The notes beneath the pieces are model-generated. The model was not told where the DNA came from and did no database searches. It was given only the letters and a program-made list of their open reading frames with translations. Both the position numbers and the translations under genes were made by a program. Source: Chiridota heheva (taxonomy: Eukaryota > Echinodermata > Holothuroidea > Apodida > Chiridotidae). From it: a stretch of DNA of 64,000 nucleotides. Of this stretch, positions 1,345 through 61,360 are shown one piece after another (positions within the stretch are counted from its first letter, which is position 1; each line of letters opens with the position of its first letter). The DNA is taken from contig JAIGNY010000696.1 of the NCBI GenBank assembly GCA_020152595.1, forward strand, positions 807,001 through 871,000, in the 5' to 3' direction.

Positions 1345-1467
1345 ATTTTTTTAGATATTGTCTTGTAGTGAAGATCAACATTCATACCCCCTAGCTATGC
1401 CACTAGGTTCTATCAATTTGCAAATCATTACTCCCTTAACAACTTTGCTTGCTATCACAAACATCAA

Positions 1468-1791
1468 GTGGATGCTGACAGGGCCTGTGGTGGCGTCTCC
1501 ATTCTCGTTAGACACGATATCCCACACAGCCCTGTTCGTGTGCACACCGACCTTCAGGCCATCTGTATTTCTATCTCCCTCCACAAAACTTTCACTCTCT
1601 GCAATATCTATCTCCCTCCCAACACCAACATTCAACCAACCAGCCTTAACAACCTCATCTCTCAGCTTCCCACCCCCTTCATCCTTCTTGGTGACTTCAA
1701 CGCTCACAACCCTTTGTGGGGCTCTAATACCACCACCCCTAGAGGCAAGTTCATCAAAACGCTCTCCGTCAGCACAGCCTGTCCTTACTGA
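1468..1791 (+). pseudogene. LINE endonuclease fragment (exonuclease-endonuclease-phosphatase fold)
   Basis: Residues read ACGGVSILVRHDIPHSPVRV, then CNIYLPPN and LLGDFNAHNPLWGS. GDFNAHNP is the conserved catalytic segment of LINE apurinic-like endonucleases. The N-terminal Asn/Glu motifs are absent because the element is truncated on this side. Confidence 0.82.
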
Positions 1792-2639
1792 ACACTAACT
1801 CCCGACCTACCTTCATCCTGCCACAGGCTCTCTCACCTGTATTGACCTGTCTATCTGTTCCCCTAACCTCCTCCCTGACTTTAGTTGGAGAGTCACTGCT
1901 GACCTCTGTGGTAGTGATCATTACCCTCTTCTTATACACTCCAATCTTCAAATCCCCACTGAGCACACCCCCAACTGGAACCTCGACAAGGCTGACTGGT
2001 CCCTTTTTGAAACCCTCTGTGACTCACACTCTCCCCCCATCTTCGAGGATGAGGATCCCATGTCTAACTTCAGTAATATCCTTATCAACATCGCCACCTG
2101 CTCAATTCCCAAAACCTCCAAACCCCAAATCATCCCCCCAACCCCTGGTTCTCAGATGACTGCAAAACCGCCATCAAGAACAGGAAAAGAGCCCTCAGGA
2201 ACTTTAAAACTAACCCGACCACCCATAACCTTAACCTCTTTCGCATCAGCCGTGCAAGGCCAGACGCACTATCAAGGACAGTAAAACCAACACTTGGAAC
2301 AACTTTATCTCTTCTCTCACCACCAACACCCCCACTAAGAAGATTTGGAGAATGGTTAACAGCTTCCACGGCAGAGTAGGCAAATCTTCCATCTCCCATC
2401 TCTTGGAATGGAGACCTTCTCACCATAAAAAAAGACATCGTTGACCACCTCGCCGCCTCTTTCAGCAACATCTCGGCCTCGACCGTCTACTCCAATGCTT
2501 TCAAAATCAAAAAGCTTGCGATGAAGCCCGGAGAATCACTTTTCCCTCTGACAACTCCAAAGCTACAACACCCCTCTCACCCTTTCTGAATTAAACCAAG
2601 CCATCAGCGACGCTGGCTGCACCTCCAAGGGCCCAGATA

Positions 2640-3760
2640 ACATCCCCTATCAGTTTCTGAAACACCTCCCCATCAAAGCCACCACTACCCTACTCACCAT
2701 CTTCAACCACATTTGGTCCTCACACTCCTTTCCCCTATCTGGAGAACAGCTATTGTCATCCCCGTCCTTAAACCGGGAAGGATAGCACCGACCCCACCAG
2801 CTACCGACCCATCGCCCTTACTTGCTGTCTCTGTAAAATTATGGAAAAGATCATTAATCAGAGACTAAACTGGTTCCTCGAGACCAACAGAATCCTCTCT
2901 CCTCACCAAAGCGGCTTCAAAACGCGTCGCAATACCTAGACCAGTTAATTACGCTCAACACCGCTATCCGGGAATCCTTTGCAAAAAGGAACACCTCATT
3001 GCCATATTTTTGACCTCGAGAAAGCTTTCGACACTACTTGGAAATACGGCATTACCGGAAACTTCACACCATTGGCCTCAGAGGCCACCTCCCCATCTTT
3101 ATTCAAAACTTCCTCTCACCCAGGCAGTTCCAAGTTCGTATTGGCCACACCCTCTCCAAGCCGTACCCCCAAGAAGAGGGCGTCCCCCAAGGCAGCATCC
3201 TCTCTCCCACTCTCTTCAACCTGAGCATTAATGACATCGGGAATGACCTTGGCCCCAGCATCAAGCGTACCCCTCTCGTGGATGACTTCACCATCTTCTA
3301 CTCCTCCCTAGCTTTCCTATTGTTGAAAATAGGCTCCAAACCAGCCTCAATCAGCTGCAAGTCTGGAGCAACAATAACGGTTTTAGATTCTCCAAAGACA
3401 AGACAGTCTGCATGCACTTTTGTCATTTCAACAACCTCCACCCCAACCCGAACTTTGTGCTCAATGGGAATCGCATCCCTAAAGTTGAAAACACAAAGTT
3501 CCTTGGTCTAACTCTAGACCCCAAGCTCACCTACAAGCCACACATCACCAACCTGAAACTAAAATGCAATAGCTCCCTCAACCTCCTCCGACTGCTCTCC
3601 AACACTACTTGGGGAGCGAACCATATGCTCTCCTCAAAATTTTCAGGCTCACCATTCGTGCCAAGCTTGACTATGGCAATATTGTTTACTGTGTCGCTCA
3701 CAACTCATACCTCAACCACATTAACACCATCCAAAATGAAGCCCTCAGGCTTTGTCTAGA
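2640..3760 (+). pseudogene. LINE reverse transcriptase, frameshifted
   Basis: Several frames are needed to follow the protein: NRILSPHQSGFKTRRNT near 2889, EIRHYRKLHTIGLRGHLPIF near 3040, GVPQGSILSPTLFNL near 3180, and the thumb region VENTKFLGLTLDPKLTYKPH near 3487. The frame is broken at about 2937 (stop), 3010, 3315 and 3620. Leu replaces the usual aromatic residue before VDD, although sequence decay makes this hard to interpret. Confidence 0.82.
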
Positions 3761-4129
3761 GCCTACAGGACCTCCCCAATCACTAGCCTTCATATTGAAG
3801 CCAACGAACCCCCTTTCTACTTAGATGTAAAAAGCTTAGCCTCTCCTATGCTTTTAGAGTCCTCACCAACACTCAGAACCCTGTTTACAACCTCATTAGG
3901 TACCCCAATTTCTCCTCCCTCTTTGATAGGACTAAAACCCTATCGCCCCCTTCAGCTTACGCATTAAATCAGACCTCTTTCAACTTGGCATCAACCCCGC
4001 CACTCTCGGCACCTATTCCTGGCCCACTTTTCCGCCTTGGGCCACCCCTTCCTTCTGTCCACCTAGACCTCTCCACTTATAACAAAACTCAAACTCACCC
4101 TAATCTCTTCATCAATCTCACAACCAAAT

Positions 4130-4780
4130 CAAAGACCAACTCTCAAATTACACCTCTATCTATACTGATGGCTCCAAGGAAGGCAACAAGACAGCTGCTG
4201 CTGCCATCATCCAAGACATCACCCTCAGTAGCAGACTTCCTGACCACTCATCCATCTTTTCAGCCGAGGCTAAGGCCATTCTCCTCGCCCTCAACTTTAT
4301 TGAGTACTCTCCTCTTAGTCACTTTGCCATTTTCTCTGACTCTAAGGCTGTTCTTACTTCATTACTCAATCTTAAATGGGATAACCTCACCTGCCACCTC
4401 CTCCTCCGAAACTCTTTTCTCCCACCCTCTGCAGGAAAAGTGTTCTTTTCTTCTGGATACCCAGCCATGTTGGCATCCCTGGCAATGACAGGGCTGATAC
4501 AGCCGCTAAGCTTGCCCTTAACCTCCTCCCTTCCCCTTTTCCCAAAACCCTCTCTGACATCAAACCGCTTATCGCTTCTCTTGTTCGTGATCGCTGGCAA
4601 ACCTTATGGAACTTCCAAATTGATAACAAACTCCATGTTATCCAGCCCACAATCGATCAAATCCACCATCAACAACCTTTCTCGTATCGACAACGTTCAT
4701 ATTACCCGTCTTAGAATTGGTCACACCCACCTCACTCCTCCCACCTCCTTATTGGTTCCCCCAACCCCTCTGTAACAATT
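4130..4780 (+). pseudogene. LINE RNase H domain, frameshifted
   Basis: The four acidic positions of RNase H can be placed: D in IYTDGSK, E in SAEAKAILL, D in SDSKAV, and D in GNDRADTAAK. A one-base frameshift near 4440-4455 separates the third and fourth. A C-terminal RNase H after RT is typical of the I group of LINEs. Confidence 0.78.
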
Positions 4781-5702
4781 GCCACTGCATCCTTACAATC
4801 CAACACGTTCTCCTTGCTTGCCCCCTGTACAACCTTCCCAGAGCTTCTCTCGCCCCACAACTCAATTGCTGAGTTCTTCCAAAAAAATCCTCCAGATAAA
4901 ATAGTCTCCTTCCTTCAGCATGCATCCCTCTACAACCATATTTAATCCTCCTCTTCCACCCCTCTCTACTCTGTTTTTAGTTTTCCCATGCACCTCCTCT
5001 CTCGATCACAGCTTTCTGGCTTTTGTTCTTGAATTTCTCTCATTCTTCCCCTGGTCTCTTTCCTTACTACCTCTAAAATGATCTGACCTCTCAGGCACAA
5101 TTTGACCTTCGTTGTCGTGGTGCCGTTAAGACCTCATCAAACAAACAAACAAACTTACAAATCTTGATCTTAGAAAACTCTTACAAGTATTTATGACAAC
5201 TCGTCTTATTCTTATGCTTTTTGTTCAGTATTACCCCCTGCCCCCCTCCCCCTTTCCATATTCTTGGGGTCTGCCACTGTTAAAGGTGGTAATGACAGAA
5301 AGGAAAGGTTTTCTGGAAGAATAATCTCAAATATCGCTTGGTACGCTTGGGCTACACACTCCTGAATGTCATTCAGTCTGTGCCCACCTTAAACTGTGAT
5401 GCAAATCATAGAACATGAATTAATCCTTCAATCTAATATGATTGTGCATTTGTATACTTTCCCATACATTATATCACTATGAGGAAGAAAAGAGATGATG
5501 AATCGTACATATTCTTAGCGTTGATGTCGGACCATCAAAATAGCTGCTTTTGTTGTAGGTGGTACAGTTGAATTATAGGGATCATCAATCTGTGCTAACT
5601 GTTTACGCAAAAAACATTACTGTTTTAAAACATAGACTAAGTGGAATGTTGCATGGAATGTGTTGGCACTTAGTTGCTTATAGAGTTTAGATCATTAGAA
5701 TT

Positions 5703-9850: not shown

Positions 9851-10070
9851 TAGGGTAAGCAAATGCAGTGGCTCAGTGCATGGTTGGGAGTCCAAGTTTG
9901 GAACGAGAAGTACCAGGTTTGATTTCCTGTGAAAATGAGTTCCAGCATTAACCTGCGATGGACTGGCATCCCGTTGCCAGGGGAAAATCATATGCTTTCG
10001 AGTCTCATCCACTTGCATCATGGAAACTGGAGATAAGCACCAGCCCTGTGGGCCAAATGGCTCAGAAAGA
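9851..10070 (+). mobile_element. tRNA-derived SINE, internally deleted copy
   Basis: It shares gatggactggcatcccgt, gaaaatcatatgctttcgag and ggagataagcaccagccct with the fuller copies at 23.55-23.82 and 45.10-45.38 kb. The head (gcagtggctcagtgcatggt) is tRNA-like, but the stretch around tccttgagcaagacac is missing. Confidence 0.75.
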
Positions 10071-19607: not shown

Positions 19608-19736
19608 ATAATAAGTTTCAGGATGTTTTTATAAGCATTTTGTAGTCATAGAAAGATTTGCTAAGCTTTCACAGCGAGCTGTGACGTACTAGTCATGCTT
19701 AAATGCTTATAGATAGATAACATGTTGGTTCGTCTA

Positions 19737-19946
19737 CACATGCATCCCTCTATAACCATATTTAATTCTCCTCTTCCACCCCCTCTCTACTTTGTTTTTG
19801 TTTTACCCATGCACCTCCTCTCTCGATCACAGCTTTCTGGCTTTTGTTCTTGAAATTCTTCCCTGGTCTCTTTCCTTACTACCTCTAAAATGATCTGATC
19901 AACAATTTGATGTTGGTTTGACCTCATCAAACAAACAAACAAACAC
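19737..19946 (+). mobile_element. 3'-end copy of the same I-like LINE family
   Basis: From tgcatccctctataaccata to the (AAAC)n tail this matches the 3' end of the element at 4919-5157, with a deletion near the tail that removes the gtcgtggtgccgtt segment. It is severely 5'-truncated and has no coding sequence. Confidence 0.85.
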
Positions 19947-20599: not shown

Positions 20600-21316
20600 T
20601 AACTAAGGGATGAAGGACAATATTGAAGGTAATAAGTCAGGCTGGGTAATTAAACCAAGGGATGAAGGATAATATTGGAGGTAATCACCCAGCCAGGCTG
20701 GTTAATTAAACTAAGGGATGAAGGATAATATTGAAGGTACTCACCCATCCAGGCTGGGTAATTAAACTAAGGGATGAAGGATAATATTGGAGGTAATCAC
20801 CCAGCCAGGCTGGTTAATTAAACTAAGGGATGAAGGATAATATTGTAGGTAATTACCCAACCAGGCTGGGTAATGAAACCAAGGGATGAAGGATAATATT
20901 GGAGGTACTCACCCATCCAGGCTGGGTAATTAAACTAAGGGATGAAGGATAATATTGGAGGTAATCACCCAGCCAGGCTGGTTAATTAAACTAAGGGATG
21001 AAGGATAATATTGAAGGTACTCACCCATCCAGGCTGGGTAATTAAACTAAGGGATGAAGGATAATATTGGAGGTAATCACCCAGCCAGGCTGGTTAATTA
21101 AACTAAGGGATGAAGGATAATATTGTAGGTAATTACCCAACCAGGCTGGGTAATGAAACCAAGGGATGAAGGATAATATTGGAGGTAATCACCCAGCCAG
21201 GCTGGTTAATTAAACTAAGGGATGAAGGATAATATTGTAGGTAATTACCCAACCAGGCTGGGTAATGAAACCAAGGGATGAAGGATAATATTGAAGGTAA
21301 TCACCCAGCCAGGCAC
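20600..21316. repeat. 56-bp minisatellite, about 13 units
   Basis: The unit contains aagggatgaaggataatatt then ggaggtaatcacccagcc. The word gatgaagg recurs at 20661, 20717, 20773, 20829 and 20885, exactly 56 bp apart. Three unit subtypes (tactcacccatcc, taatcacccagcc, taattacccaacc) occur in a recurring order, indicating block duplication of multi-unit segments. Confidence 0.94.
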
Positions 21317-21369
21317 TTGGGACAAGTAGAAATTTAAGTGGACTACTTACAGCATGCCTATATACCTTT

Positions 21370-22240
21370 TCAAATCTGAACTAGCAATTTCTGAAAAACT
21401 AATTAAAATAATGTCAGATAACGGAAATTCACATGTCCATAATGGACCAGTTGTATACTAGGGAATCTTATTGGTAAAGAAAGTACTGGAGGAACCTTAG
21501 CCATCTTCATAACTCACGCACGGTATAGGACCAAGTGTAATACATGAAGGTAATACATGCATTTTACATGAAGGTGATACATGCATTATACGTAAAGGTA
21601 ATACATGCATTATACATCGAAGTTACACATGCATTATACATGAAGGTAATATGTGCATTATACATGGAGGTAATACATGCATTATACATGAAGGTAATAC
21701 ATGCATTATACATGCATTGTACAAGGAGGTAATACATGCATTGTACATGGAGGTAATACATGCATTATACATGAAGGTAATACATGCATTATACATGAAG
21801 GTAATACATGCATTATACATTGAGGTAATACATGCATTATACATGGAGGCAATACATGCATTATACATGAGGGTAATACATGCATTGTACATGGAGGTAA
21901 TACATGCATTATACATGGAGGTAATACATGCATTATTATGGAGGCAATACATGCATTATACATGAAGGTAATACATGCATTATACATGGAGGTAATACAT
22001 GCATTATACATGGAGGCAATACATGCATTAAACATGAAGGTAATACATGCATTATACATGGAGGCAATATATGCATTATACATGAAGGTAATACATGCAT
22101 TATACATGAAGGTAATACATGCATTATACATGAAGGTAATACATGTGCACAGTGTTGCTTACAACTTTTCCTCTAGCCACTGCAACTGATTAGTTGGATA
22201 ACAAAGGAAAATTCCCCCAGCAGTTGATTGGTCCAATTAC
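21370..22240. repeat. Dispersed repeat, copy carrying an expanded minisatellite
   Basis: Its left flank (caaatctgaac, then acatgtccataatgga) and right flank (caacttttcctc, then ggaaaattccc and gcagttgattggtcc) match the element at 24288-24575. The matching flanks surround a 24-bp array here and a single unit-like stretch there. Confidence 0.82.
21538..22147. repeat. 24-bp minisatellite, about 25 units
   Basis: The unit contains ggtaatacatgcattataca; variants are tgaagg, tggagg and tgaggg before taa. Several units carry deletions (21705-21720, 21935). The ATGCAT palindrome is in nearly every unit. It is open in several frames because of period 24, with no gene context. Confidence 0.96.
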
Positions 22241-23547
22241 TGAACTCATTACGCTTGGCTAAACTCAATTTTGAAAAGGTCTATAGGGTGATTCAATGCA
22301 TACTTTCAGCAATTATACCGCATACATGCATTAGTACTTGCTCACATAACACACCACTCCATTAAGGCCCCCTCCCCATGTGATGAAAGAGTAGTAAAGA
22401 AGTTTCATACATGAGCTGCAAAAAAAAAAAAAAAAAAAGCTTTATCTTTCTATGTAACAGAAAAAGGATGGCACACTTTCAAAAATACAACAGGGTTGTA
22501 AGGCCTTAGTCAAAAATTTGAAACATGGATTTAAGGAGAATCAATGTTTTGAGGACACTTTTAAATATGACATCACACACCTTCTGTAGATGAATTCCAA
22601 CCAACATCTTGACGTCTTTAATCATCATTTTAAGTCCTTAATTCGGTAGAGATGGTAACAGGTTTGACACGGAGGCAGGTCAGCACAGCACTGTTATACC
22701 AAATTCTCAAAATTTTATGCAGTTAAGATTTGAGGTTGGCAACCAGGACTGAAAAAGTGATGCTAGATGTGCCAGGACATTAAATGGAATTTTCAACATC
22801 TGTGACCACAACTGATAATCAGCTGTAGTTTGCTTTACTGAATGAGTTGTTGTAGCCTCTACTCCCAGCATCGCTGATGGAGCAACTAATGTATTGAAAT
22901 ACTCATCTTCTTCACTATTTGACTCGTGGGGACTTATTTTGTAGTGCCTTGGTGCATGTATCTGTGTAGCCTGGTCATACCCCATTTGCTATTGTTAGCC
23001 TTAGCATTTATGTTAAGATTACAAATACAAAATAAAACTTCAAACGTTACCAAATTCAAACTGCATTCATCTCAATAGCCATTATTTGCTCTAGCCAGAG
23101 CATTGAGACGTTTTGTAATATTTTGTAAGAATGGGTTTCAATAACAGCATGTTTGTTGCATATCTGGAGAAAGTTATATGTTCAATGTAGTCAAAAAAAA
23201 TAGATGGCATTTACAATAGCAGTACTGAAGCATTTTCAAGGGATTTATTTTGGGATAAAAGCTCTGTGATGTAGGCCTACATCATTTGCAACATTTTCAA
23301 GTCGAAAGGCTACTTGCTAAATGAACATAGTATTTTGCGCATTTATTTGAATTACAGTTAAGTATTATTCAACTTTCTTGAATTGATCACATTCTATTGC
23401 ATTCATTAGATAAATATTTATAAAGAAATCATCTGTACCGCTGGCAAGGGGGTGAGGCATTTCCCCATGGGTCTGGAGGCCTTGGTCATAGGGTGGTCAT
23501 AGAAATTAAGAAAAGGAATGTTCGATGAAGAAATAGACAGTGTTGGA
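22241..23547. other. Mostly unassigned interval with a weak minus-strand ORF
   Basis: At 22707-22985 the minus strand is open for 92 codons with a non-repetitive, protein-like composition (ESNSEEDEYFNTLVAPSAML). I do not recognise it; it could be a transposon relic or chance. Otherwise there is only a poly(A) run at 22421-22438. Confidence 0.35.
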
Positions 23548-23805
23548 TTTTCAAGATGTGCAGTGGTGAGGGAGTTATGTTTGTATTCTAAAGGTGCCGG
23601 GGCTCAATTCCGTTGTGAGCACTGCATTGTGTCCTTGAGCAAGACACTTTACTCTACTTGCTTCAGTCCACTCAGCTGTGACAAATGAGTACCAGCACTG
23701 CTGGGGAGTTAATCTGCAATGGACTGGCATCCCGTCCAGGCGGAGTCATGTACTCTCATCTGATTGCGCAATGGAAAGCAAGGATAAGCACCGGCCCTTA
23801 TGAGT
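23548..23805 (+). mobile_element. tRNA-derived SINE
   Basis: A decayed tRNA-like head (gcagtggtgagggagttatg, later ggctcaattccg as B box) is followed by the body tccttgagcaagacacttta, ctgggga gttaatctgc, gatactgg-type tggactggcatcccgtcc, and aaggataagcaccggccct. It is the same family as the copies at 9.85 and 45.1 kb. Confidence 0.8.
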
Positions 23806-24096
23806 GTTCTGTTCTACAACTGTATTCCAGCCAGCATAAACCTACGCTGCATAACTCATGAATTAGAGAGTGATCACTGCCATCATCAATGCACATTGTT
23901 TGAAATCATCCAATCACAGGTCAGTAAACAATGAGCACATGACAGAGTACACTCTGGTTTTGTCTCCATCATTTGTATAAAAACTGGGCATTTCGAAAAA
24001 GATTTTTTTTTTTTTATAGATTTGCAGCATTTAAAAAGCGGTATGAAAGTAATTTCTGAAAGGCCAGTAATTGTCTCTAACGTTGAGGTAAATGGA

Positions 24097-24186
24097 TTTC
24101 AATTTGTGCGTTTTGATTGGTCAAAGTTCAATGGTCCAATGAACACTTATACTAATAGGCCAATCAGCAATCGATTTGAAATATAA
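24097..24186. repeat. Imperfect inverted repeat, about 90 bp
   Basis: gatttcaatttgtgcgtttt gattgg on the left pairs with ccaatcagcaatcgatttga on the right, with a loop of about 35 bp. This is probably the relic of a small foldback element. Confidence 0.55.
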
Positions 24187-24287
24187 TGTACTCCTCAACA
24201 TTTTAATCACAATAGATGGATTTAATGGTGTTTACATTTAAACATTTCTTTATCTTTGCTTTTCTCCTTTTGTTCAGTATTGACCAT

Positions 24288-24575
24288 TTCAAATCTGAAT
24301 AGGTAATTAAATTTGAATATCACATGGCTGAAATTCATGTGTCCATAATGGAGGGGAAATAAGGGAACCTAATCGACCAATCAAATGCTGGATTTTTAGC
24401 TGTCTGCACAATTTACGCAGGGTATGTGGTCAAGCGTTTGAAAACATGTGCGGTGTGCATGAGGGTATTACACGCTCGCATTGTTGTTGCAACTTTTCCT
24501 CAAGGAAGTACCGCTGCCTGGTTGGTTAACAAAGGGAAAATTCCCACGGCAGTTGATTGGTCAACATTCCCTAAA
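24288..24575. repeat. Dispersed repeat, copy without array expansion
   Basis: It has the same flanks as 21370-22240: caaatctgaataggtaatta, tcatgtgtccataatggagg, gcaacttttcctcaagg and cagttgattggtcaac. In the middle it has one stretch, catgagggtattacacgctc then gcattg, that aligns with one unit of the 24-bp array. Confidence 0.78.
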
Positions 24576-25137
24576 AAATCATATTCGGGTATAATTGATT
24601 TGAGAAAAAAGAATTGATTGAACTTGTCTCATTGCCTTCCACACTGTAAATATGCTTAGGCTTAGTTTTAAGTTAATGTAGCAAAAAGTTACTTATTTAG
24701 ACCATACACTATAGTCTACTATATGGAACGCACTTAACCAGCCTTTTTATTCAAGGGTTTTTCATGGGGGAAAATATAGCAATATTGTATAATAATACAG
24801 GAATGTATTCTGCAATGAAATTCATGGTTTTTTATCGATGGGTCAGTTAAACAAATATATTCAAATTCGTCTTGCTGTTATAGTGAGATAAATGAAGGTT
24901 TTAAAAGGTAACCTGGTATTTGTTGTAAAATTAATGTAATTTTGTTAAATTTGGTTGACATGCATTTGGTGTTTGAAGAGATATAGATATTTGAACTTTA
25001 GGAGCCTTTTTGCTTCATATGTTTGTGTACAGAATTATAAATGTTGTTTTTATGCAGGATTATATCACGTTAAATATGAAGAATATCGTTAGGTTGTTTA
25101 TTATCTGATCAAAGAATTTCATTTTGAGAAAAAGTAT

Positions 25138-28100
25138 AATGCATACAGGTATACTGAAATGTGTACAGGTATACTGAAATGTATACAGGTATACTGAAAT
25201 GTATACAGGTATACTGAAATGTATACAGGTATACTGAAATGCACACAGGTATACTGAAATGTATACAGGTATACTGAAATGTATACAGGTATACTGAAAT
25301 GCATACAGGTTTACTGAAATGCATACAGGTATACTGAAATGCACACAGGTATACTGAAATGCACACAGGTATACTGAAATGCATACAGGTATACTGAAAT
25401 GTATACAGGTATACTGAAATGTATACAGGTATACTGAAATGCATAGAGGTATACTGAAATGCATAGAGGTATACTGAAATGTATACAGGTATACTGAAAT
25501 GTATACAGGTATACTGAAATGCATACAGGTATACTGAAATGCATACAGGTATACTGAAATGCACACAGGTATACTGAAATGCACACAGGTATACTGAAAT
25601 GTATACAGGTATACTGAAATGTATACAGGTATACTGAAATGTATACAGGTATACTGAAATGCATACAGGTATACTGAAATGCATACAGGTATACTGAAAT
25701 GCACACAGGTATACTGAAATGTATACAGGTATACTGAAATGTATACAGGTATACTGAAATGCACACAGGTATACTGAAATGTATACAGGTATACTGAAAT
25801 GTATACAGGTATACTGAAATGCATACAGGTATACTGAAATGCATACAGGTATACTGAAATGCATACAGGTATACTGAAATGCATAGAGGTATACTGAAAT
25901 GCATAGAGGTATACTGAAATGTATACAGGTATACTAAAATGTATACAGGTATACAGAAATGTATACAGGTATACTGAAATGTATACAGGTATACTGAAAT
26001 GTATACAGGTATACTGAAATGCATACAGGTATACCGAAATGTGTACAGGTATACTGCAATGCATACAGGTATACTGAAATGTATACAGGTATACTGAAAT
26101 GCACACAGGTATACTGAAATGCACACAGGTATACTGAAATGCACACAGGTATACTGAAATGCATACAGGTATACTAAAATGCATACAGGTATACTGAAAT
26201 GCATACAGGTATACTGAAATGCATACAGGTATACTGAAATGCATAGAGGTATACTGAAATGCATAGAGGTATACTGAAATGCATACAGGTATACTGAAAT
26301 GTATACAGGTATACTGAAATGCATACAGGTATACTGAAATGCATACAGGTATACTGAAATGCACACAGGTATACTGAAATGCACACAGGTATACTGAAAT
26401 GTATACAGGTATACTGAAATGTATACAGGTATACTGAAATGTATACAGGTATACTGAAATGCATACAGGTATACTGAAATGCATACAGGTATACTGAAAT
26501 GCACACAGGTATACTGAAATGTATACAGGTATACTGAAATGTATACAGGTATACTGAAATGCACACAGGTATACTGAAATGTATACAGGTATACTGAAAT
26601 GTATACAGGTATACTGAAATGTATACAGGTATACTGAAATGTATACAGGTATACTGAAATGCATACAGGTATACTGAAATGCATACAGGTATACTGAAAT
26701 GTATACAGGTATACTGCAATGCATACAGGTATACTGAAATGTATACAGGTATACTGAAATGCATACAGGTATACTGAAATGTATACAGGTATACTGCAAT
26801 GCATACAGGTATACTGAAATGCATACAGGTATACTGAAATGCATACAGGTATACTGAAATGTATACAGGTATACTGAAATGTATACAGGTATACTGAAAT
26901 GCATACAGGTATACTGAAATGCATACAGGTATACTGAAATGTATACAGGTATACTGAAATGCATACAGGTATACTGAAATGCATACAGGTATACTGCAAT
27001 GCATACAGGTATACTGAAATGCATACAGGTATACTGAAATGCATACAGGTATACTGAAATGCATACAGGTATACTGAAATGCATACAGGTATACTGAAAT
27101 GTATACAGGTATACTGAAATGTATACAGGTATACTGAAATGCATACAGGTATACTGAAATGCATACAGGTATACTGCAATGCATACAGGTATACTGAAAT
27201 GCATACAGGTATACTGAAATGCATACAGGTATACTGAATGTATACAGGTATACTGAAATGCATACAGGTATACTGAAATGCATACAGGTATACTGAAATG
27301 TATACAGGTATACTGCAATGCATACAGGTATACTGAAATGCATACAGGTATACTGAAATGCATACAGGTATACTGAAATGTATACAGGTATACTGAAATG
27401 TATACAGGTATACTGAAATGCACACAGGTATACTGAAATATATACAGGTATACTGAAATGTATACAGGTATACTGAAATGCATACAGGTATACTGAAATG
27501 CATACAGGTATACTGAAATGCACACAGGTATACGGAAATGTATACAGGTATACTGAAATGTATACATGTATACTGAAATGTATACAGGTATACTGAAATG
27601 CACACAGGTATACTGAAATGCACACAGGTATACTGAAATGCACACAGGTATACTGAAATGCACACAGGTATACTGAAATGTATACAGGTATACTGAAATG
27701 CATAGAGGTATACTGAAATGTATACAGGTATACTGAAATGTATACAGGTATACTGAAATGCACACAGGTATACTGAAATGCATACAGGTATACTGAAATG
27801 TATACAGGTATACTGAAATGTATACAGGTATACTGAAATGTATACAGGTATACTGAAATGTATACAGGTATACTGAAATGCACACAGGTATACTGAAATA
27901 TATACAGGTATACTGAAATGTATACAGGTATACTGAAATGCATACAGGTATACTGAAATGCATACAGGTATACTGAAATGCACACAGGTATACTGAAATG
28001 TATACAGGTATACTGAAATGTATACATGTATACTGAAATGTATACAGGTATACTGAAATGCACACAGGTATACTGAAATGCACACAGGTATACTGAAATG

Positions 28101-30697
28101 TATACAGGTATACTGAAATGCACACAGGTATACTGAAATGCATACAGGTATACTGAAATGCACACAGGTATACTGAAATGCATACAGGTATACTGAAATG
28201 CACACAGGTATACTGAAATGTATACAGGTATACTGAAATGTATACAGGTATACTGAAATGTATACAGGTATACTGAAATGCATACAGGTATACTGAAATG
28301 CATACAGGTATACTGAAATGCACACAGGTATACTGAAATGTATACAGGTATACTGAAATGTATACAGGTATACTGAAATGTATACAGGTATACTGAAATG
28401 TATACAGGTATACTGAAATGTATACAGGTATACTGAAATGTATACAGGTATACTGAAATGTATACAGGTATACTGAAATGTATACAGGTATACTGAAATG
28501 CATACAGGTATACTGAAATGCATACAGGTATACTGAAATGTATACAGGTATACTGAAATGTATACAGGTATACTGAAATGTATACAGGTATACTGAAATG
28601 TATACAGGTTTACTGAAATGCATACAGGTATACTGAAATGTATGGGTATGCTGAAATGCACACAGGTATACTGAAATGTATACAGGTATACTGAAATGCA
28701 CACAGGTATACTGAAATGCATACAGGTATACTGAAATGTATACAGGTATACTGCAATGCATACAGGTATACTGAAATGTATACAGGTATACTGAAATGCA
28801 TACAGGTATACTGAAATGCATACAGGTATACTGAAATGCATACAGGTATACTGAAATGCACACAGGTATACTGAAATGCATACAGGTATACTGGAAATGC
28901 ATACAGGTATACTGAAATGTATACAGGTATACTGAAATGTATACAGGTATACTGAAATGTATACAGGTATACTGAAATGTATACAGGTATGCTGAAATGC
29001 ATACAGGTATGCTGAAATGCATACAGGTATACTGAAATGCATACAGGTATACTGAAATGCACACAGGTATACTGAAATGCACACAGGTATACTGAAATGT
29101 ATACAGGTATACTGAAATGCACACAGGTATACTGAAATGCATGCAGGTATGCTGAATGCACACAGGTATACTGAAATGCATACAGGTATACTGAAATGCA
29201 TACAGGTATGCTGAAATGTATACAGGTATACTGAAATGTATACAGGTATACTGAAATGTATACAGGTATACTGAAATGTATACAGGTATACTGAAATGCA
29301 TACAGGTATACTGAAATGCATACAGGTATACTGAAATGCATACAGGTATACTGAAATGCACACAGGTATACTGAAATGCACACAGGTATACTGAAATGCA
29401 TACAGGTATACTGAAATGTATACAGGTATACTGAAATGCATACAGGTATACTGAAATGCATACAGGTATACTGAAATGCATACAGGTATACTGAAATGTA
29501 TACAGGTATACTGAAATGCATACAGGTATACTGAAATGCATACAGGTATACTGAAATGCATACAGGTATACTGAAATGCATACAGGTATACTGAAATGCA
29601 TACAGGTATACTGAAATGTATACAGGTATACTGAAATGCACAGGTATACTGAAATGCATACAGGTATACTGAAATGCATACAGGTATACTGAAATGCATA
29701 CAGGTATACTGAAATGCATACAGGTATACTGAAATGCATACAGGTATACTGAAATGTATACAGGTATACTGAAATGCATACAGGTATACTGAAATGCATA
29801 CAGGTATACTGAAATGCATACAGGTATACTGAAATGCATACAGGTATACTGAAATGTATACAGGTATACTGAAATGCATACAGGTATACTGAAATGCATA
29901 CAGGTATACTGAAATGCATACAGGTATACTGAAATGCACACAGGTATACTGAAATGCACACAGGTATACTGAAATGCATACAGGTATACTGAAATGCATA
30001 CAGGTATACTGAAATGCATACAGGTATACTGAAATGCATACAGGTATACTGAAATGCACACAGGTATACTGAAATGCACACAGGTATACTGAAATGCATA
30101 CAGGTATACTGAAATGCATACAGGTATACTGAAATGCATACAGGTATACTGAAATGCACACAGGTATACTGAAATGCACACAGGTATACTGAAATGTATA
30201 CAGGTATACTGAAATGCACACAGGTATACTGAAATGCATACAGGTATACTGAAATGCATACAGGTATACTGAAATGTATACAGGTATACTGAAATGTATA
30301 CAGGTATACTGAAATGTATACAGGTATACTGAAATGTATACAGGTATACTGAAATGCATACAGGTATACTGAAATGCATACAGGTATACTGAAATGCATA
30401 CAGGTATACTGAAATGCACACAGGTATACTGAAATGCACACAGGTATACTGAAATGCATACAGGTATACTGAAATGTATACAGGTATACTGAAATGTATA
30501 CAGGTATACTGAAATGTATACAGGTATACTGAAATGTATACAGGTATACTGAAATGCATACAGGTATACTGAAATGCATACAGGTATACTGAAATGCATA
30601 CAGGTATACTGAAATGCACACAGGTATACTGAAATGCACACAGGTATACTGAAATGTATACAGGTATACTGAAATGCACACAGGTATACTGAAATGT
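25138..30697. repeat. 20-bp minisatellite, about 278 units, 5.56 kb
   Basis: The unit is gcatacaggtatactgaaat, with frequent alternatives gtatacag, gcacacag and gcatagag in the first half. The register is kept for kilobases, with rare slips near 27239, 28641, 28893, 29155 and 29640. The unit almost contains the palindrome GTATAC. The minus strand is open in all frames for up to 1873 codons because the unit has no stop in any phase; this is not a gene. The interval 24576-25137 before it holds nothing recognised. Confidence 0.98.
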
Positions 30698-32964: not shown

Positions 32965-33086
32965 ATCAATTTCTCTCATTCTCCCCCTGGTCTCTTTCCT
33001 TCCTACCTCTAAAATGATCTGACCTCTCAGGCACAATTTGACCTTAGTTGTCGTGGTGCCGTTAAGACCTCATCAAACAAACAATT
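32965..33086 (+). mobile_element. Short 3'-end copy of the same I-like LINE family
   Basis: It carries ctggtctctttcctt, then ctaaaatgatctgacctctc, then tcgtggtgccgttaagacct and catcaaacaaacaa, as at 5049-5155. It keeps only about 120 bp, a typical 5'-truncated insertion. Confidence 0.85.
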
Positions 33087-33145: not shown

Positions 33146-33712
33146 TAATTCATTGGCCCTGAGAAACATTAGCGGCGCCTCTGCCTATGATCATCAACCG
33201 TCCTCATCCAAAGCAGAGCAGACTGTGGCTCCCAGCAAAAACACTTGCTGATCAAGGGAAGATCACCTTCAAAAATCTCTCATTTCAATGGGTCCCAAAC
33301 CGGACTCCTGGATCACAAGGGCTTTACATTTGGGTTCTTCCTAGCACCCCCATTACATATGTATATGGTAGAAAGGGGAAACTTGTGCCCAGCAAGAAAT
33401 TTTGAAAAGGTTTAGAGTGTCAAATTATGTTCAATTTGGAGTAAATAGGTCAAAAATGATTTATTACCTTAATTTTTGTTTTCTTTCAAAATTTCACTTT
33501 TTGAAATTTACCTGCACTTAATTTGGAAAATGTGAAATTTTTACTTTGTAAAATGTTGAATACATTTGCAAAATATTCTGTCATTGTTTACCCTGGGAAA
33601 AATTAGCTGTGCCTCTCTGCCTACCAACCATCCATACTCAAATCACGGTGAATTACAGCTGTAGGCTACCAGCAAAATGAATGTCTATCAGGGTCCGAGA
33701 AAATGACATTTA
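33146..33712. repeat. Two diverged direct copies of a roughly 125-bp sequence
   Basis: Copy 1 at about 33146-33275 (ccctgagaaacattagc, cctctgcctatgatcatcaa, gcagactgtggctcccagca) and copy 2 at about 33588-33712 (accctgggaaaaattagc, cctctctgcctaccaacc, tgtaggctaccagcaaaatg) align. They look like remnants of an unknown interspersed repeat. Confidence 0.55.
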
Positions 33713-36375: not shown

Positions 36376-36870
36376 AGGACCCCCTACCCCCGGGTCCAAC
36401 CCAAACACCCCCACCTTAGGTCCGGCCCAGACACCCCCACCTTAGGTCCGGCCCAGACACCCCCCCACCTTAGGTCCAACCCAGACACCCCCACCCCCGG
36501 GTCCAACCCAGACACCCCCGCCCGGTCCAACCCAGACACCCCTTACCCCGGGTCCAACCCAGACACCCCACCCCGGGTCCAACCCAGACACCCCCACCCC
36601 GGGTCCAACCCAGACACCCCCACCCCGGGTCCAACCCAGACACCCCCACCCCGGGTCCAACCCAGACACCCCACCCCGGGTCCAACCCAGACACTACCCC
36701 CACCCCGGGTCCAACCCAGACACCCCCACCCCTAGGTCCAACCCACACACACACACCCCACCCGGGGCCAACCCAGACACCCCCACCCCGGGTCCAACCC
36801 AGACATCCCCACCCTGACCCCGACACTGCCACCCCGGGTCCAACCCAGACACCCCACCCTAACACCCCAC
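36376..36870. repeat. GC-rich satellite, domain A (G-run-rich minus strand)
   Basis: Units of about 24-26 bp contain gggtccaacccagacacccc. The minus strand carries repeated runs of three to five G at short spacing, giving strong potential for G-quadruplexes. A and T are nearly absent from stop-forming positions, so the frames are open without coding meaning. Confidence 0.9.
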
Positions 36871-38344
36871 CACGCCCGACCGAGGGAGGGCTCCTCCCGT
36901 CCGACCGGAGGGGAGGGCCCTCCCGTCCGACCGAGGGGAGGGGCTCCTCCGGAGGGGGAGGGCCTCCCGTCCGACCGAGGGGGAGGCTCCTCCCCGTCCG
37001 ACCGGGGGGGAGGCTCCCTCCCGTCCGGCCGGGGGACTCCCGTCCGACCGGGGGAGGACTCCCGGGTCCGACCGAGGAGGGCCTCCCCGTCCGACCGAGG
37101 AGGCTCTCCCCGTCCGGACCGGGAGGGCTCCTCCCCGTCCGACCGAGGGAGGGCTCTCCCGTCCGACGGAGGGGGAGGGCTCCTCCCGTCCGACTCGGGG
37201 GGGGAGGACTCCCGTCCGACGACCGAGGGGGAGGGCTCCTCCCCGTCCGACCGAGGAGGGCTCCTCCCCGTCCGTCCGGTGGGAGGGCTCCTCCCGTCCG
37301 AGGGTCCGACCGGGAGGGGGAGGAGGCTCCTCCCCCGAGGGGGAGGCCTCCCGTCCGACCGAGGGAGGGAGGGCTCCCGGGCCCGTCCGGAGGGAGGGCT
37401 CCCGTCCGGAGGGGCCTCCCGTCCGACGGAGGGGCTCCTCCCGTCCGACCGGAGGGGGAGGACTCCCGTCCGACCGAGGGAGGGCTCCTCCCGTCCGACG
37501 GGAGGACTCCCGGGTCCGACCGAGGGGGAGGACTCCCGTCCGATCCGAGGGGCTCCTCCCGTCCGACGAGGAGGGCCTCCCGGGTCCCCGTCCGGAGGAG
37601 GGACTCCCGGGTCCGACCGGAGGGAGGCTCCTCCCCGTCCGACCGAGGGAGGGCTCCTCCCGTCCGGGGGACTCCCTCCCCGTCCGGAGGGAGGGCTCCT
37701 CGGGTCGTCCGACCGAGGGGGCTCCTCCCGTCCGACCGGAGGGGGAGGCTCCCAGGTCCGACCGGGGAGGCCTCCCGTCCGATCGGGGGGAGGCTCCCAG
37801 GGTCCGACCGAGGGAGGGGGGAGGAGGCTCCTCCCCCGACCGAGGAGGCTCCTCCCCCGTCCGACCGGGGAGGGCTCTCCCGTCCGACGAGGGAGGGCTC
37901 CTCCCCGACGGAGGGAGGGCTCCCCCGGGAGGGGGAGGGCTCTCCCGTCCGACCGGAGGGAGGGCTCCTCCCGTCCGACGGAGGGAGGGGCTCTCCCGTC
38001 CGACCGAGGGAGGGCTCCTCCCCGTCCGACCGAGGAGGCTCTCCCGGTCCGTCCGAGGGAGGTCTCCTCCCGGTCCGACCGAGGAGGCTCCTCCCGTCCG
38101 ACCGAGGGGGCTCTCCCGTCCGACGAGGGGGCTCCCGTCCGTCGGGAGGGCTCCTCCCGTCCGACCGAGGGAGGGCTCCTCCCGTCCGTCGAGGGAGGGC
38201 TCTCCCGTCCGACCGAGGGAGGGCTCCTCCCCGTCCGACCGAGGGAGGGCTCCTCCCCGTCCGACCGAGGGAGGGCTCCCCGTCCGACCGAGGGAGGGCC
38301 TCCCGTCCGACCGAGGGAGGGCTCCTCCCCGTCCGACCGAGGGT
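36871..38344. repeat. GC-rich satellite, domain B
   Basis: Irregular units of about 20-27 bp are built from gtccgaccgagggagggctc and ctcccc. Unit length varies by small indels in the G and C runs, unlike the clean minisatellites elsewhere in the window. Confidence 0.9.
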
Positions 38345-38692
38345 CCCGTCCACCGAGGGGTCCCGCCCGACCCGAGGGGTCCCCCCGGGAGGGGTCCCCC
38401 GTCCGAGGGAGGGGTCCCCCCCGTCCGAGGGAGGGGTCCCCGTCGGTCCCCGGGGGATTGGTCCCGTCCGAGGAGGGGTCCCCGTCCGAGGGAGTGGTCT
38501 CCGCTGGACGGAGTGGTTCTAACCGAGGGACCGGAGAATTCAGTTCGTCAGAGGGGTCCTCGTCGCGGGAGTGGTCCCGTCCGAGGAAGTGGTCCCCGCC
38601 CGAGGGAGTGGTCCTCGCCCGAGGGAGTGGTCTCGTCCGAGGGGAGTGGTCCTCGTCCGAGGGAGTGGTCTCCGTCCGAGGGACCTGAGAAT
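38345..38692. repeat. GC-rich satellite, domain C
   Basis: The units are gtccgagggagtggtc and gtccgaggaggggtcccc. The domain keeps the gtccgaggga core of domain B while changing the rest. The palindrome gaattc occurs twice (ggagaattcagtt, gagaattccccg). Confidence 0.85.
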
Positions 38693-39228
38693 TCCCCGTC
38701 CTTTGGAGGACCCCCGTCCTTTGGAGGACCCCCGTCCTTTGGAGGACCCCCGTCCTTTGGAGGACCCCCGTCCTTTGGAGGACCCCGCCCTTTGAGGACC
38801 CCGTCCTTTGAGGACCCCGTCCTTTGAGGACCCCGTCCCTTGGAGGACCCCGTCCTTTGAGGACCCCGTCCTTTGAGGACCCCGGCCCTTGAGGACCCCG
38901 TCCTTTGGAGGACCCCCGTCCTTTGGAGGACCCCGTCCTTTGGAGGACCCCCGTCCTTTGAGGACCCCGTCCTTTGAGGACCCCGTCCTTTGGAGGACCC
39001 CGCCCTTTGAGGACCCCGCCCTTGGAGGACCCCCGTCCTTTGGAGGACCCCCGTCCTTTGGAGGACCCCCGTCCTTTGGAGGACCCCCGTCCTTTGGAGG
39101 ACCCCGCCCTTGGAGGACCCCGTCCTTGGAGGACCCCGTCCTTTGGAGGACCCCGTCCTTTGGAGGACCCCGCCCTTTGAGGACCCCGCCCTTTGAGGAC
39201 CCCGCCCTTGAGGACCCCGTCGCCCTTC
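38693..39228. repeat. GC-rich satellite, domain D, 18-bp unit
   Basis: The unit is ctttggaggacccccgtc, with a shorter 15-16-bp form ctttgaggaccccgtc interspersed in blocks. Confidence 0.92.
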
Positions 39229-40115
39229 GGAGGACCCCCGTCCTTCGGAGGACCCCCGTCCTTCGGAGGACCCCCGTCCTTCGGAGGACCCCCGTCCTTC
39301 GGAGGACCCCCCCGCCTCGAGGACCCCGTCCCCGGAGGACCCCGTCGCCGGAGGACCCCGTCACCGGAGGACCCCGTCCTTCCGAGGACCCCGTCCCGGA
39401 GGACCCCGTCCCGGAGGACCCCGACCCCGTCGGAGGACCCCCCCCGGAGGACCCCGCCCTTCGAGGACCCCCCCCGGAGGACCCCGCCCTTCGAGGACCC
39501 CGCCCCCGGAGGCCCCGTCGCCCGGAGGACCCCGCCCTTCGGAGGACCCCCGCCGGAGGACCCCACCTTCGAGGACCCCGTCGCCCCGGAGGACCCCGCC
39601 CTTCGGAGGACCCCGTCTCGGAGGGACCCCCCCCGGAGGACCCCGCCCCGGAGGACCCCCCCTCGGAGGACCCCGCCCGCCGGAGGCCCCGCCCCGGAGG
39701 ACCCCGTCCCTTCGAGGACCCCGTCCTTCGAGGACCCCGTCTTCGGAGACCCCCGTCCCGGAGGACCCCGCCCTTCGGAGGACCCCCCTTCGAGGACCCC
39801 GTCGCCCTTCGGAGGACCCCGCCCTTCGAGGACCCCGCCCTCGAGGACCCCGCCCTTCGGAGGACCCCGCCCGGAGGACCCCGCCCCGAGGCCCCCTTCG
39901 GAGGACCCCGCCCCCGAGGACCCCGTCACCGAGGGCCCCGTCCGCCGGAGGACCCCCGTCCGTCGGAGGACCCCCGTCCGTCGGAGGACCCCAGTCCGTC
40001 GGAGGACCCCAGTCCGTCGGAGGACCCCAGTCCGTCAGAGGACCCCAGTCCGTCAGAGGACCCCAGTCCATCAGATGACCCCCGTCCATCAGATGACCTC
40101 CGTCCATCAGATGAC
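39229..40115. repeat. GC-rich satellite, domain E
   Basis: Units cttcggaggacccccgtc, then many short cggaggaccccgtcc forms, then cgtcggaggaccccagtc, and finally catcagatgacctccgtc grade into unique sequence at about 40115. It is a continuation of domain D with ttt changed to ttc. Confidence 0.92.
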
Positions 40116-42019
40116 CTCCATCCATGGACCCGTAAAACTTTGTTACAGTTCCGTGTGGACCCATACTGGGCCATCTAACAGAGCCATAGATGTATCACGG
40201 CCCTGTGCGAGTCCGTGAAAACGAGCCGTGGAGCCATACGGAGCCGATCACCGGAGCGTATGGACCCATAGGAGTCATTTAATGGCAAGCCGTAAAATTA
40301 CTAAATCAAAATAGTCTCAGAAATAACTTACATACGACAAACCTCAGCCCACCAACTTACTCCCTTAGTAGCGTCGAGATGGGCCCCAGAGGGTAAGTCA
40401 ATGTAAGTTAACAAAGTAGACCTGCCTCAGACCTCCGCAACTCAGTCGCCGTGAGTTGTGAGTAAGTATAAAACTCTGAGAGACTATAATGATTTATATA
40501 TTTATCTTGGCGTCTGAAAAGTAAAAATATACTTACACCAAAACTCCCCTGCGGGGGTGTGCCTACAACCCTTACATGGGACTGTGGAAGACGTCAAACA
40601 TAATGAGGCAAGCCACAGCAACTTTGTACACCATAAAAATAAACAGAAAATTCTATATCTGGTATATTTTTAAATCCCAAGAAAAAACGTAAAAACTGTG
40701 AACTTGGTGTCTGTGGAGACCAGGGAGACCTAAACATGGTCCCTTCAGTGCCCTAAAAATCGAGCTCATAAATTAAAAACTTTGTCTTTAACTATAAGCA
40801 AGAAAAATGAAGTCACAAAATTCAATGTAACGTAAAAGAATAAATAGGCTCTTTTGTACTAACAGTAGCTCCTTGGAGCTGAAAGAAGCAGACTTCCTGC
40901 TTATCCTGTGGATACTGCGACCTCCTGGGCATGCGCCAACATAAAAATGAGAAGATGGCCTAATGAATTGGAGAACCTGCTGAAGATATCATAAGATGTT
41001 AATACAATGCATAAGTATAATGCTTGGCTATCCTTGTAGTAGGGCGGGGCCTACGGTGAAAAACACTCAAACCCAAGGGAAAGGGGTCCTCTAAACAGGC
41101 AGACTAGGTGCTCTAGGGACTAAAATGCCCGCCTCAAGAGTGGGACTCTAAGAACTAGCCACCCACTTTGTATGGATGGAAGTAAAAACACCCTAACTTC
41201 AAGTGTAAGCCTAATGGAAAAATCCTGTGAGTCAGATCAAAGAATTCCCTTGTCCCATGGCTACCTTGTCTTACCTCAGAAAACTAGAGGTAAACAGCAA
41301 AGGTGAAACTGTATTAAAACCTGTGCGGTGGAGCTGCAGAAGAAAAAATTGTTAGAAAAAGGGGTGCAAGTTTTAGCTTTTCACACCAGTTCCAGCGATG
41401 CTGTGATTACAACGCGCTGAAAAGAAGTAAGGGTTATTAGAGGTATTATGGAGGTCAGGGCCTGGGCTGGTTACTACATTTTTAAGGTCAGTTAGAATCA
41501 CGTCATGGACCAGATTGCATATTTATAGCATGGAAGGTAAGGTATAACGAAGTAAATCTTTAACCTAAACTAACCTTTAAACCAGGCCCTATAGCCATCT
41601 TTCTCATAGGGGACAATAATTAAAGAGTGGTGACTGAGCACGAGTCTCCATACTCCCTTGTTGTTTGATTTCACATAAGGGAGACAAGGCCCGTATGCTT
41701 TATGCTGCCTACAAGCATCCTTTCAATCTGGAATGCAGCAGGCCAGGGGGAGCAGATACTTTCTATGACTATCTTTGCCCCAGTGAGGGTAGGAATATGT
41801 CACCTCCACTGTGTTTACCCCATACCTGAAGCAGGTACTATAATACCAAGTACAATTTCTTAATTAATTCATCTAACAAAAGCCTCAAAATATACAATTT
41901 TCCAAATTTAAAGACTGTTTCACTCATTTTCATGCATCTCATCTTAACATGGAATTCAGCAGGAATCTAGTTTGTCATCCCTACACCTATATGAGCTCTT
42001 GAAGAACCCTTTTCAACCA

Positions 42020-45107: not shown

Positions 45108-45385
45108 AGTAGCCCAGTGGTTAGGGCATCGGTTTCATACTCGAAAGTTAATGGGATGGAATCTCAACCAGGGCGCTGTGCTGTATCCTTAAGCAAGATA
45201 TTTTACCCCATTTGCTCCCACTACCCTCAGATGTAAAACGAGTACCAGTTTCGGCTGGGGAGTTAACCTGTGATGGACTGGTGCCCCATCCAGGGGAAGT
45301 CAGGTACTCTCGTCTGCTTAGCACCATGGAAACCAGGTATAAGCACCGGCTCTATAAGCCCTGCAGGCTTGATGGGATATAACCA
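45108..45385 (+). mobile_element. tRNA-derived SINE, best-preserved copy
   Basis: The head gcagtagcccagtggttagg resembles a polymerase III A box and ggatggaatctcaacc a weak B box. The body then carries tccttaagcaagatatttta, cggctggggagttaacctgt, gatggactggtgccccatcc and ggtataagcaccggctct. It lies downstream of the WD-repeat gene's 3' end. Confidence 0.8.
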
Positions 45386-46121: not shown

Positions 46122-49100
46122 CTGAAAATGATAAGCAAAAGTTATCCAGAGACATTGTATGTATGTACACAAGTATTAAACAAAAGTAAATATACATAAT
46201 CTAAAACATGTGTGTTTCTTGCCTAGACTTTTCCATATCATAGACTTGCAGGTGCTCGGTAGAGTGCATATACATACCTCCACCAAGCCAATCTCAGAAA
46301 CCTACATTGCTCTCTCCTTTTTCTTTATTTTATTAAAAATAAATCATTTTTTAAACCACTTACCTGTATTTGTCTGCAACTACGACTAACAATTATATAC
46401 AGGCACTGGAGGGCCTCAAGAGATGTGACATCTTATATGACGACATATGTGTATGCTTTTATTTTTTTGTTCAGGCCAAGAATATGTTTTTATTTTAGAG
46501 CATTTCAAGAACATCTAATCTTTTTCACCTTGCATTCTGAGCAGGCTCATTGACATTGTTTTCCATGTTCATTTGTTATATGTTTTTATTTAATTTCACA
46601 CAAACAAAAGGGCACACACCTTTCGCAAAGGAGATGTCCCCCCTCCCCTTCCCCTCCATACTGGATTTATTAAAAATAAATCATTTTTTAAACCAGTTAG
46701 CTGTATTTGTCTGCAACTACAACTGAAAATTATACACAGGCACGGATGGGCCTCAAGAGATGTGACATCTAAGGATCGACTGTATTCCATTGGAAATATG
46801 TAAATAACATTCACATAAATACAAAATCATCATCAAAACTATTCCAATTAACCTCTCTGAGTTAGTTGATTGACATTTTTCAACCAATCACTGCATGAAT
46901 TTGCTAAGCAAGAAAATCTTCATAAATAAGTGGGGAAAACATCCCACGCGGTACTGGTACAGTACAGCTAGCTGGCGGGTGCACTCATGTAGTCAATGCA
47001 CAAAACAAATTTCTGCACAAACAGACTAGAGTGACGACAAGGTGGGAGTATAAATTGCACCTATGGGCCCGCTACGGGTTTTGTAATGCTTAGCAAACAG
47101 AATTTTGTTTATTCCTTTCGCTAAAGATCCAGAGAAGGGTCATAAATGGACCACAGCGTGCGGTAGGCCACATGAACATCTAAATGTCAAATGCAGCATT
47201 GATTCGAGTGTGTCTGTTTGCCTCACCTAGGTACCATGTTGCTATTATGCTGGGCGTGGCCTATTTCCTTAATCAATTCTTTCTTGTGAATTTAAAATTT
47301 TACCAAAATCTATTCATAATTTTCTAAGATATGTTGTTGAAAACAAAACAAATAAATGTACATACAAATAATTTTCATACCACTTCATAGGCAGCCAATA
47401 ATGAGGGGAATTCAGCTTAATATAACGATGAACTAATGACTTGCTCTGATATAATTATACAGGTACATTGTACTATGCATCAAAGATAGTCACACAAGAG
47501 TATAAAAGCATCATGAACTTATTAGTCTATGGTCGATGAACAGCTTCAAATTTTAGAGGACAATTTTTTCATTTTATACGAAGGCATAATATTATGAATA
47601 GACTTCTCAAAATTATGAAAGAATGTGTTTTCAGTTTTTGAGGTGGCTGATCATAATTTGAGGATTATTTAAAGTTTTTGTCCCTCCTGTTCTTTCCTAT
47701 GAAATGACCAAACAGTTGATTGGGGGGGTAAGGCTGATATGGGAAAGCTGCTCCCCTTCAAAGATAGATTGGAAATAAATGGATTAACATAAGTAAAAGA
47801 GACGCCTGCCCGTTAATACTTCACAAATTTACCTCTAAATCTATCAAAGGAGCAATGCATATTTGATGGGGTTTTTAAGTATTTAAGCAATTTTTGCCAA
47901 TTCCTTTCCTTTTAATTCTATAATTATGAATACATGTACAGGTCTTAGAAATGATGATAACATAGCATACTTGATCTGCCAAGATGAGTAGGTCAGCAAT
48001 GCCCGACAAAAGCGTATCATGTTCCATCCACTTCTTGCTAAATCCTCTAGAGTCACATTACACAAGCACACTAATAGAGCCTGGAGTAATAGGTTGAATC
48101 CATAGCTTGAATTCAATATGATATTTGAAGGAATAGCCTACAATGTACAGCAGAGAATGGAGTGATGATTGATGGTTTGTCACAAAATGTCACGTCACAA
48201 AAAAAAAATTTGTCACGTCTCAAATGTCGCATAATTTTTGGCACCTTTTGCTCAGAATGTCACATTAATTTTGCCTTTGTCACATTTGATTGACATACTG
48301 TAGATTTCACACATGACCAGTTGACAGGTGATATTTATAGAAAGGATCATTTGTTATGTCTGTTTCATGAAAAATGGAATCCACCACTAATATGCACCAT
48401 CAAATTACCAATGAGTGTGAGTGAAGACCCTGGGTAAAACATGTCACAAAATGTCAGACAAATTTTAATACATCTGTTTATCTTCATTTTGACATAAAAT
48501 ATTTTAAATGTCACAGATTTTTGGACAATGAAATTGTGTTACAAAATGTCACCATGTCACGGATGCTCCATTCTGTGCATGTACAGGTATAACCTACCTG
48601 GTATACTTTATACAGCAGCTAGGTCAGGTAGATTATCCATGATCTATAGCATCTGTACATATACACCCCTCAGGACCTAAACTTACCGCTTCCCTGTTCC
48701 CTCTTTATATGGTTTCTTTTTTATGTCGGCCGCAATCATGTCATCATCATACTCTACTGAATCTGTCTGAGCGTAGTTAACCATGCCTAGGGTGTCCATC
48801 TGTACACAAAATATAAGCAATAAGGATATCTCACAAGCATTTACACATGTGATCAAGATGTTCAAATCCTGTACAAGCGAAGCAGCTCCATCCTTTCTCT
48901 GTGAGTTATGAAGCTAGTGGTGAAGCTACCAGAAGGGCAGGTAAGAAATTGCCACCTGGTTCACAAAAACCAATTTAATCTCTGGCGCCCTTTTGCCATT
49001 TTCATATAAACTCGTTCTGCTTTTTTATTTTATGATTTTATAATTCAATATATTGTTAGTGGGTAAATGTGTTTATTTGTTTTAGTGTTTCAGATGCATA

Positions 49101-61188: not shown

Positions 61189-61360
61189 CTGATTGGATGA
61201 TACAAAGGAAGAAGAGTATAAATTACACATCTTACCTTTTGAGAATTTGTTTAATAATTTACATCTGTGACCTCTTTAAAGTTACCCTCTGATTGGAAAA
61301 ACACAAGAAAAAGAAAGCAGAAACTACAAAATTGACTTTTTGAGAATTCAAATTAAAACA
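61161..61360 (-). repeat. Two-copy duplication across the acceptor of WD-repeat exon 1
   Basis: acatctgtgacttcttcaaa with tcctctgattgga at 61161-61197 recurs as acatctgtgacctctttaaa with ccctctgattgga at 61261-61297, exactly 100 bp away. The remaining 60 bp are also related (ttttgagaatt at the end). Copy 2 keeps the AG but soon meets a stop, so it is a decayed partial exon. Confidence 0.82.

Follow-up and report, generated by a model that had tools for sequence, protein, structure and literature searches.

Two related sequences, 2 kb apart in the 64,000-base stretch of DNA analysed here (the window), differ in that one of them, copy A, contains a minisatellite of 25 units and the other, copy B, contains a single unit-like stretch at the same place. 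We consider it probable that the pair represents a MITE-like, non-coding DNA transposon with inverted ends, the central stretch of which expanded in A and is single in B. The first steps of a minisatellite are difficult to follow, as the form that precedes expansion has generally disappeared, and a pair of elements with one unit versus 25 units provides a concrete starting sequence. The origin of tandem repeats inside transposons is a known route, the principle having been published for other elements; the pair adds an instance rather than a new idea.

Copies A (bp 21357–22287) and B (about bp 24278–24608) are collinear homologues on the plus strand. In a self-BLAST of the array-masked window, the left internal flank of A, bp 21390–21538, aligns with bp 24294–24437 at 66% identity across 151 columns with gaps included (E = 2e-10), and the right internal flank, bp 22150–22277, aligns with bp 24479–24608 at 72% over 131 columns (E = 6e-13). 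The gap-free identities are 72.8% on the left (115 matches) and 74.0% on the right (94 matches). The alignment of both flanks bears out the preliminary description, which had placed two copies of one repeat at these positions, and supports the view that the A and B intervals are copies of one repeat. A plain alignment of both intervals placed the left flank of B inside the array of A, and the counts given here are not based on it. Copy A is 931 bp long with its array and 325 bp long without it, its limits being given by an inverted repeat and by the end of the homology to B. Copy B has no array, and its right outer limit is vague, lying at bp 24608, or at bp 24624 according to a profile built from B itself.

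The right flank has a 26-base motif that, searched for in the 64-kb window with up to three mismatches, occurs in A and B only, and it was found in none of 100 shuffles of the window. Within the 64 kb, no third copy was found with this motif at up to three mismatches, by masked self-BLAST, or with a profile built from the two copies. The other matches to the two-copy profile in the window are internal to the array, apart from one at bp 55977–56025 with an E-value of 8.8. On the reverse strand, the profile has three matches, all on the copies themselves, with E-values of 8e-4 (on copy B), 0.38, and 3.7. The strongest of these is accounted for by an inner inverted repeat of B, in which the left arm, bp 24375–24388 of the plus strand, pairs at 13 of 14 positions with the right arm, bp 24549–24562 of the minus strand; the same 14 letters as in the right arm end the right-flank motif of A (bp 22220–22233). 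Viral and prokaryotic contigs gave no copies (four patterns against viral_contigs, one against genome_contigs), a result with little bearing on an animal-like repeat.

The minisatellite of A occupies bp 21540–22145 of the plus strand and is made up of 24 units and a 20-nt partial unit, with a period of 24 and the consensus ATACATGAAGGTAATACATGCATT. Wrap-around alignment divides its 606 bp into 25 units: 22 have the full 24 bp, two deviate in length (35 and 23 bp), and the terminal one has 20 nt, so that the earlier estimate of about 25 copies of a 24-bp unit in the 21.4-kb copy was accurate. With 25 head-to-tail units at a period of 24, the array lies within the 10–100 bp range of unit lengths that defines a minisatellite. 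The 35-bp unit, number 8 (bp 21708–21742, plus strand), carries an 11-bp insertion, in which a resemblance to a half unit was judged by eye. The 22 regular units represent 12 distinct sequences, with a mean pairwise difference of 9.1% and a difference from the consensus of 5.5%. Many changes confined to single units are held, as judged by eye, by units 2 to 5 on the left side. Neighbouring units are no closer to each other than remote ones are, the mean number of mismatches being 2.53 at lag 1 and 1.69 at lag 4. The word ATACATG is present twice in the array unit, at spacings of 13 and 11 bp. Only four frames of at least 110 amino acid residues are found in either copy, and all four pass through A's array.

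The middle of B contains one stretch, bp 24458–24475 of the plus strand, that matches the array unit at 15 of 18 positions and lies in register between the collinear flanks. Among 5000 letter shuffles, 3 equalled the score of this stretch against the unit, as did 29 among 8000 41-mers drawn at random from the window. When B is aligned with a version of A in which the array is collapsed to a short core, the score is 164 with no core. Used singly as the core, a full unit gives 196 and the 20-nt partial unit from the end of the array gives 200; the two joined give 212, two full units give 208, and longer cores give 192, 188, and 172. The score of 200 was reached by only 4 of 1000 shuffles of the 20-nt core. 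The evidence for a second unit in B is not significant, since the score of 212 was also reached by 130 of 1000 shuffled units and by 122 of 1000 24-mers from the window. As 200 is rarely matched by shuffles and 212 often is, B is best described as having one unit-like stretch, with no good evidence for more. The single stretch of the preliminary description is thus present in the 24.3-kb copy, but it amounts to about three quarters of a unit and is not a clean full unit.

These results bear on the proposal that the array came from outside the element and that its unit has no relation to the middle of B, which we regard as very improbable. The match is just 15 of 18, random 41-mers of the window equal it at the frequency given above, and a place just to the right of A scores higher. 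There, outside the element at bp 22322–22332, lies the unit-like word ATACATGCATT; the 41-mers that contain it outscore the B stretch against the array unit and are the best-scoring of the random places. Against an outside origin, the collinear flanks place the match in B in register, and few shuffled cores align equally well. A relationship between the middle of B and the array unit, as had been suggested, is therefore supported by sequence comparison. Words that look by eye like degenerate forms of ATACATG lie 13 bp apart in the middle of B. The array unit closest to B is number 14, in the interior of the array; its score is 28, whereas consensus-type units score 24.

New in this analysis is a 23-nt inverted repeat that bounds A at the limits of its homology to B. 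The left terminal repeat, bp 21357–21379 of the plus strand, pairs at 20 of 23 positions with the right one, bp 22265–22287 of the minus strand. For 61-nt pieces placed at the two ends, the score is equalled by 1 of 19,872 random pairs. When 21 arrays were tested blind over flanks of 300 bp, the inverted repeat of A reached only p = 0.03, and it is its location at the homology limits that makes it convincing. The same test led to rejection of the idea that all the arrays of the window lie inside inverted-repeat elements, since none of the 21 stayed significant once corrected; p was 0.03 both for the array of A and for the one at bp 61159–61348. The left end of B, bp 24278–24299 of the plus strand, matches the left inverted repeat of A at 19 of 22 positions and is also related to the complement of the right one. 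No right inverted repeat was found in B, where the score was 8, a value reached by 27% of random pairs.

The repeat is most likely a MITE-like element of about 325 bp without the array, judging from the inverted repeat at the homology limits of A. A search for a target-site duplication found no exact word of at least 4 nt directly adjoining the two ends of A; the longest word shared in the vicinity, TACTT, is out of position. A target-site duplication may have been lost by mutation, the copies being about 27% diverged. MITEs of the piggyBac type are described as having a TTAA target site and ends that begin with CC[C/T]T (PMC2872659). At A, TTAA is absent from both ends, and both paired ends begin with CCTATA. 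Because of the lack of a target-site duplication and of TTAA, we call the repeat MITE-like rather than a MITE. A word similar to the inverted end of A, with 3 mismatches in 18, was noted at bp 33401–33418 of the minus strand, about 0.04 such sites being expected by chance in all. It was set aside as a third copy because neither the profile nor self-BLAST shows an element there; it might be a lone end.

The same observations must be weighed against the suggestion that A and B are a local duplication of a segment of some other kind, for example a regulatory region, in one copy of which an ordinary minisatellite arose. The two copies are on the same strand, 2 kb apart, and are the only two found in 64 kb, all of which a segment duplication would explain, as it would the lack of a target-site duplication and of a right inverted repeat in B. 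It accounts less readily for the inverted repeat at the two homology limits of A and for the match of the left end of B to that inverted repeat, and we consider it possible but rather unlikely. For the MITE-like element that we prefer, the preliminary term dispersed repeat has a basis in the inverted repeat bounding A, but the search of the window for a third copy gave the term no further support.

Given a transposon of this kind, the array could have arisen as follows. The ancestral copy would have had one short central stretch in which ATACATG recurred at a distance of about 13 bp. In copy A, this stretch would have been duplicated by replication slippage between the short ATACATG words, and further slippage, or unequal exchange, would then have brought the array to 25 units, the last being partial. 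Copy B would have retained the single stretch. In this account, the homology, the array, the inverted repeat of A, and the single stretch of B are observed, and transposition, slippage as the mechanism, and the direction of change are inferred. The last unit of the array is incomplete, with 20 of 24 nt, as predicted by the slipped-strand model of Taylor and Breden, as that model is described in PMC3389668. Expansion driven by hairpins was considered and found no support, as there is no folding signal relative to shuffles: for a run of three units, z is 0.05 on one strand and −0.80 on the other, and for the middle of B it is −0.52.

The units of the array differ by 9%, versus 26–27% for the flanks; therefore, growth or homogenization of the array is younger than the separation of A and B. 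Low divergence among units can also result from homogenization of an old array. This leads to the proposal that the array is the older state and that B contracted to about one unit by unequal exchange or by deletion between units. Two copies with no outgroup would fit change in either direction, and a contraction would leave what B has, namely one roughly unit-sized stretch in register. Further, the B stretch differs from the unit at 3 of 18 positions (17%), less than the 26–27% of the flanks, although the stretch is short. Array divergence of only 9% argues against contraction, which is also the less simple proposal because it calls for an additional, older array that was later homogenized in A; we think it unlikely. 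The edges of the array show no special likeness to B in either direction, the best match to B being an interior unit. Expansion from a single unit is the more economical interpretation of the two copies. The preliminary claim that the array grew from one unit already in the element is thus strengthened in part, in that the middle of B shows a relationship to the unit and the array grew or was homogenized after the copies separated; B is a candidate for the state before expansion.

Several published elements resemble the one described here. BrickBuilt of Porphyromonas gingivalis is described as a MITE whose leader and tail, bearing small inverted ends, enclose a minisatellite with a 23-nt unit; one strain is reported to have 19 copies, with unit counts from 1 to 22.8 and one copy said to be repeat-free (PMC4596501). 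Thus, a series of expansion states, such as the preliminary description envisaged for this family, has already been published for another MITE. BrickBuilt is like the present element in having a minisatellite within a MITE or MITE-like element with small inverted ends, but it is bacterial and has 19 copies versus two here, and the likeness is one of described structure. MITEs that became sources of tandem repeats are listed in a review (PMC9659126) for Xenopus, bivalves, ants, lepidopterans, and rye. One of these, the Xmix MITE of Xenopus with its Xstir repeats (Hikosaka and Kawahara 2004), is lineage-specific according to the title of the work cited in that review, and it resembles our element in having tandem repeats in an animal MITE; in a table of the review, the source of its repeats is given as the inverted end, whereas here the unit is central. 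In the miDNA4 MITE of Xenopus tropicalis (Scalvenzi and Pollet 2014), the monomer is reported to arise inside the MITE and then to undergo tandem amplification, as we propose here; miDNA4 is tied to genomic satellite DNA, while just two copies of the present element are known (PMC9659126 for miDNA4). The Pearl/CvA elements of bivalves are small, non-autonomous class II elements linked to tandem arrays, a likeness that again rests on their description (PMC9659126). In humans, transposon-derived minisatellites are described as starting within a transposon and growing by local duplication, with slippage models and an incomplete last unit (PMC3389668). By the review's count, 2663 of 7276 are linked to Alu; these are human elements and are likened to ours by description (PMC9659126).

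The value of the pair would be greater if the family were large. It is conceivable, though we hold it doubtful, that the family carries a built-in, expansion-prone seed in the doubled ATACATG, with copies graded from one to tens of units; such a family would be a steady source of minisatellites in a minisatellite-rich genome.

Twenty-two arrays taken from the tandem-repeat table for the window cover 20,369 of the 64,000 bases (32%). The array at bp 25138–30696 has 278 copies of a 20-bp unit, and that at bp 49408–52171 has 63 copies of a 44-bp unit. An array of a 56-bp unit, with 12.8 copies, occupies bp 20601–21314, leaving 42 bp between its end and the left inverted repeat of A. The segment at bp 36379–40116 is a block of several GC-rich tandem repeats, with 71–74% GC in 2-kb steps versus 43–44% on either side.

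One dispersed repeat of the window has copies, 71% identical, at bp 23561–23798 and 45115–45353, with a partial third at bp 9927–10054. We take this repeat to resemble a tRNA-derived SINE; no tRNA was called in it. In the window as a whole, tRNA calling returned nothing, and there was no Rfam match at gathering scores. Two open frames of the window have no Pfam match and no PDB match. A small palindromic element at bp 24079–24202 was considered and is not supported, 234 of 6000 random sites being equally good. At bp 1372–4775, several frames carry the remains of a non-LTR retrotransposon, with endonuclease and reverse transcriptase above the Pfam cut-off and RNase H just below it. Together with the repeats, these remains give the impression of animal DNA. 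A pair of dispersed repeats in inverted orientation, about 420–470 bp long and 73% identical, is located at bp 46846–47267 and 53139–53610. An imperfect palindrome of 54 bp, 78% identical to its own complement, is at bp 33488–33541. Finally, a 117-bp dispersed repeat is found at bp 5032–5148 and 32968–33084, with a more diverged copy within bp 19715–19944; the first two copies are probably recent, since they are 97% identical.
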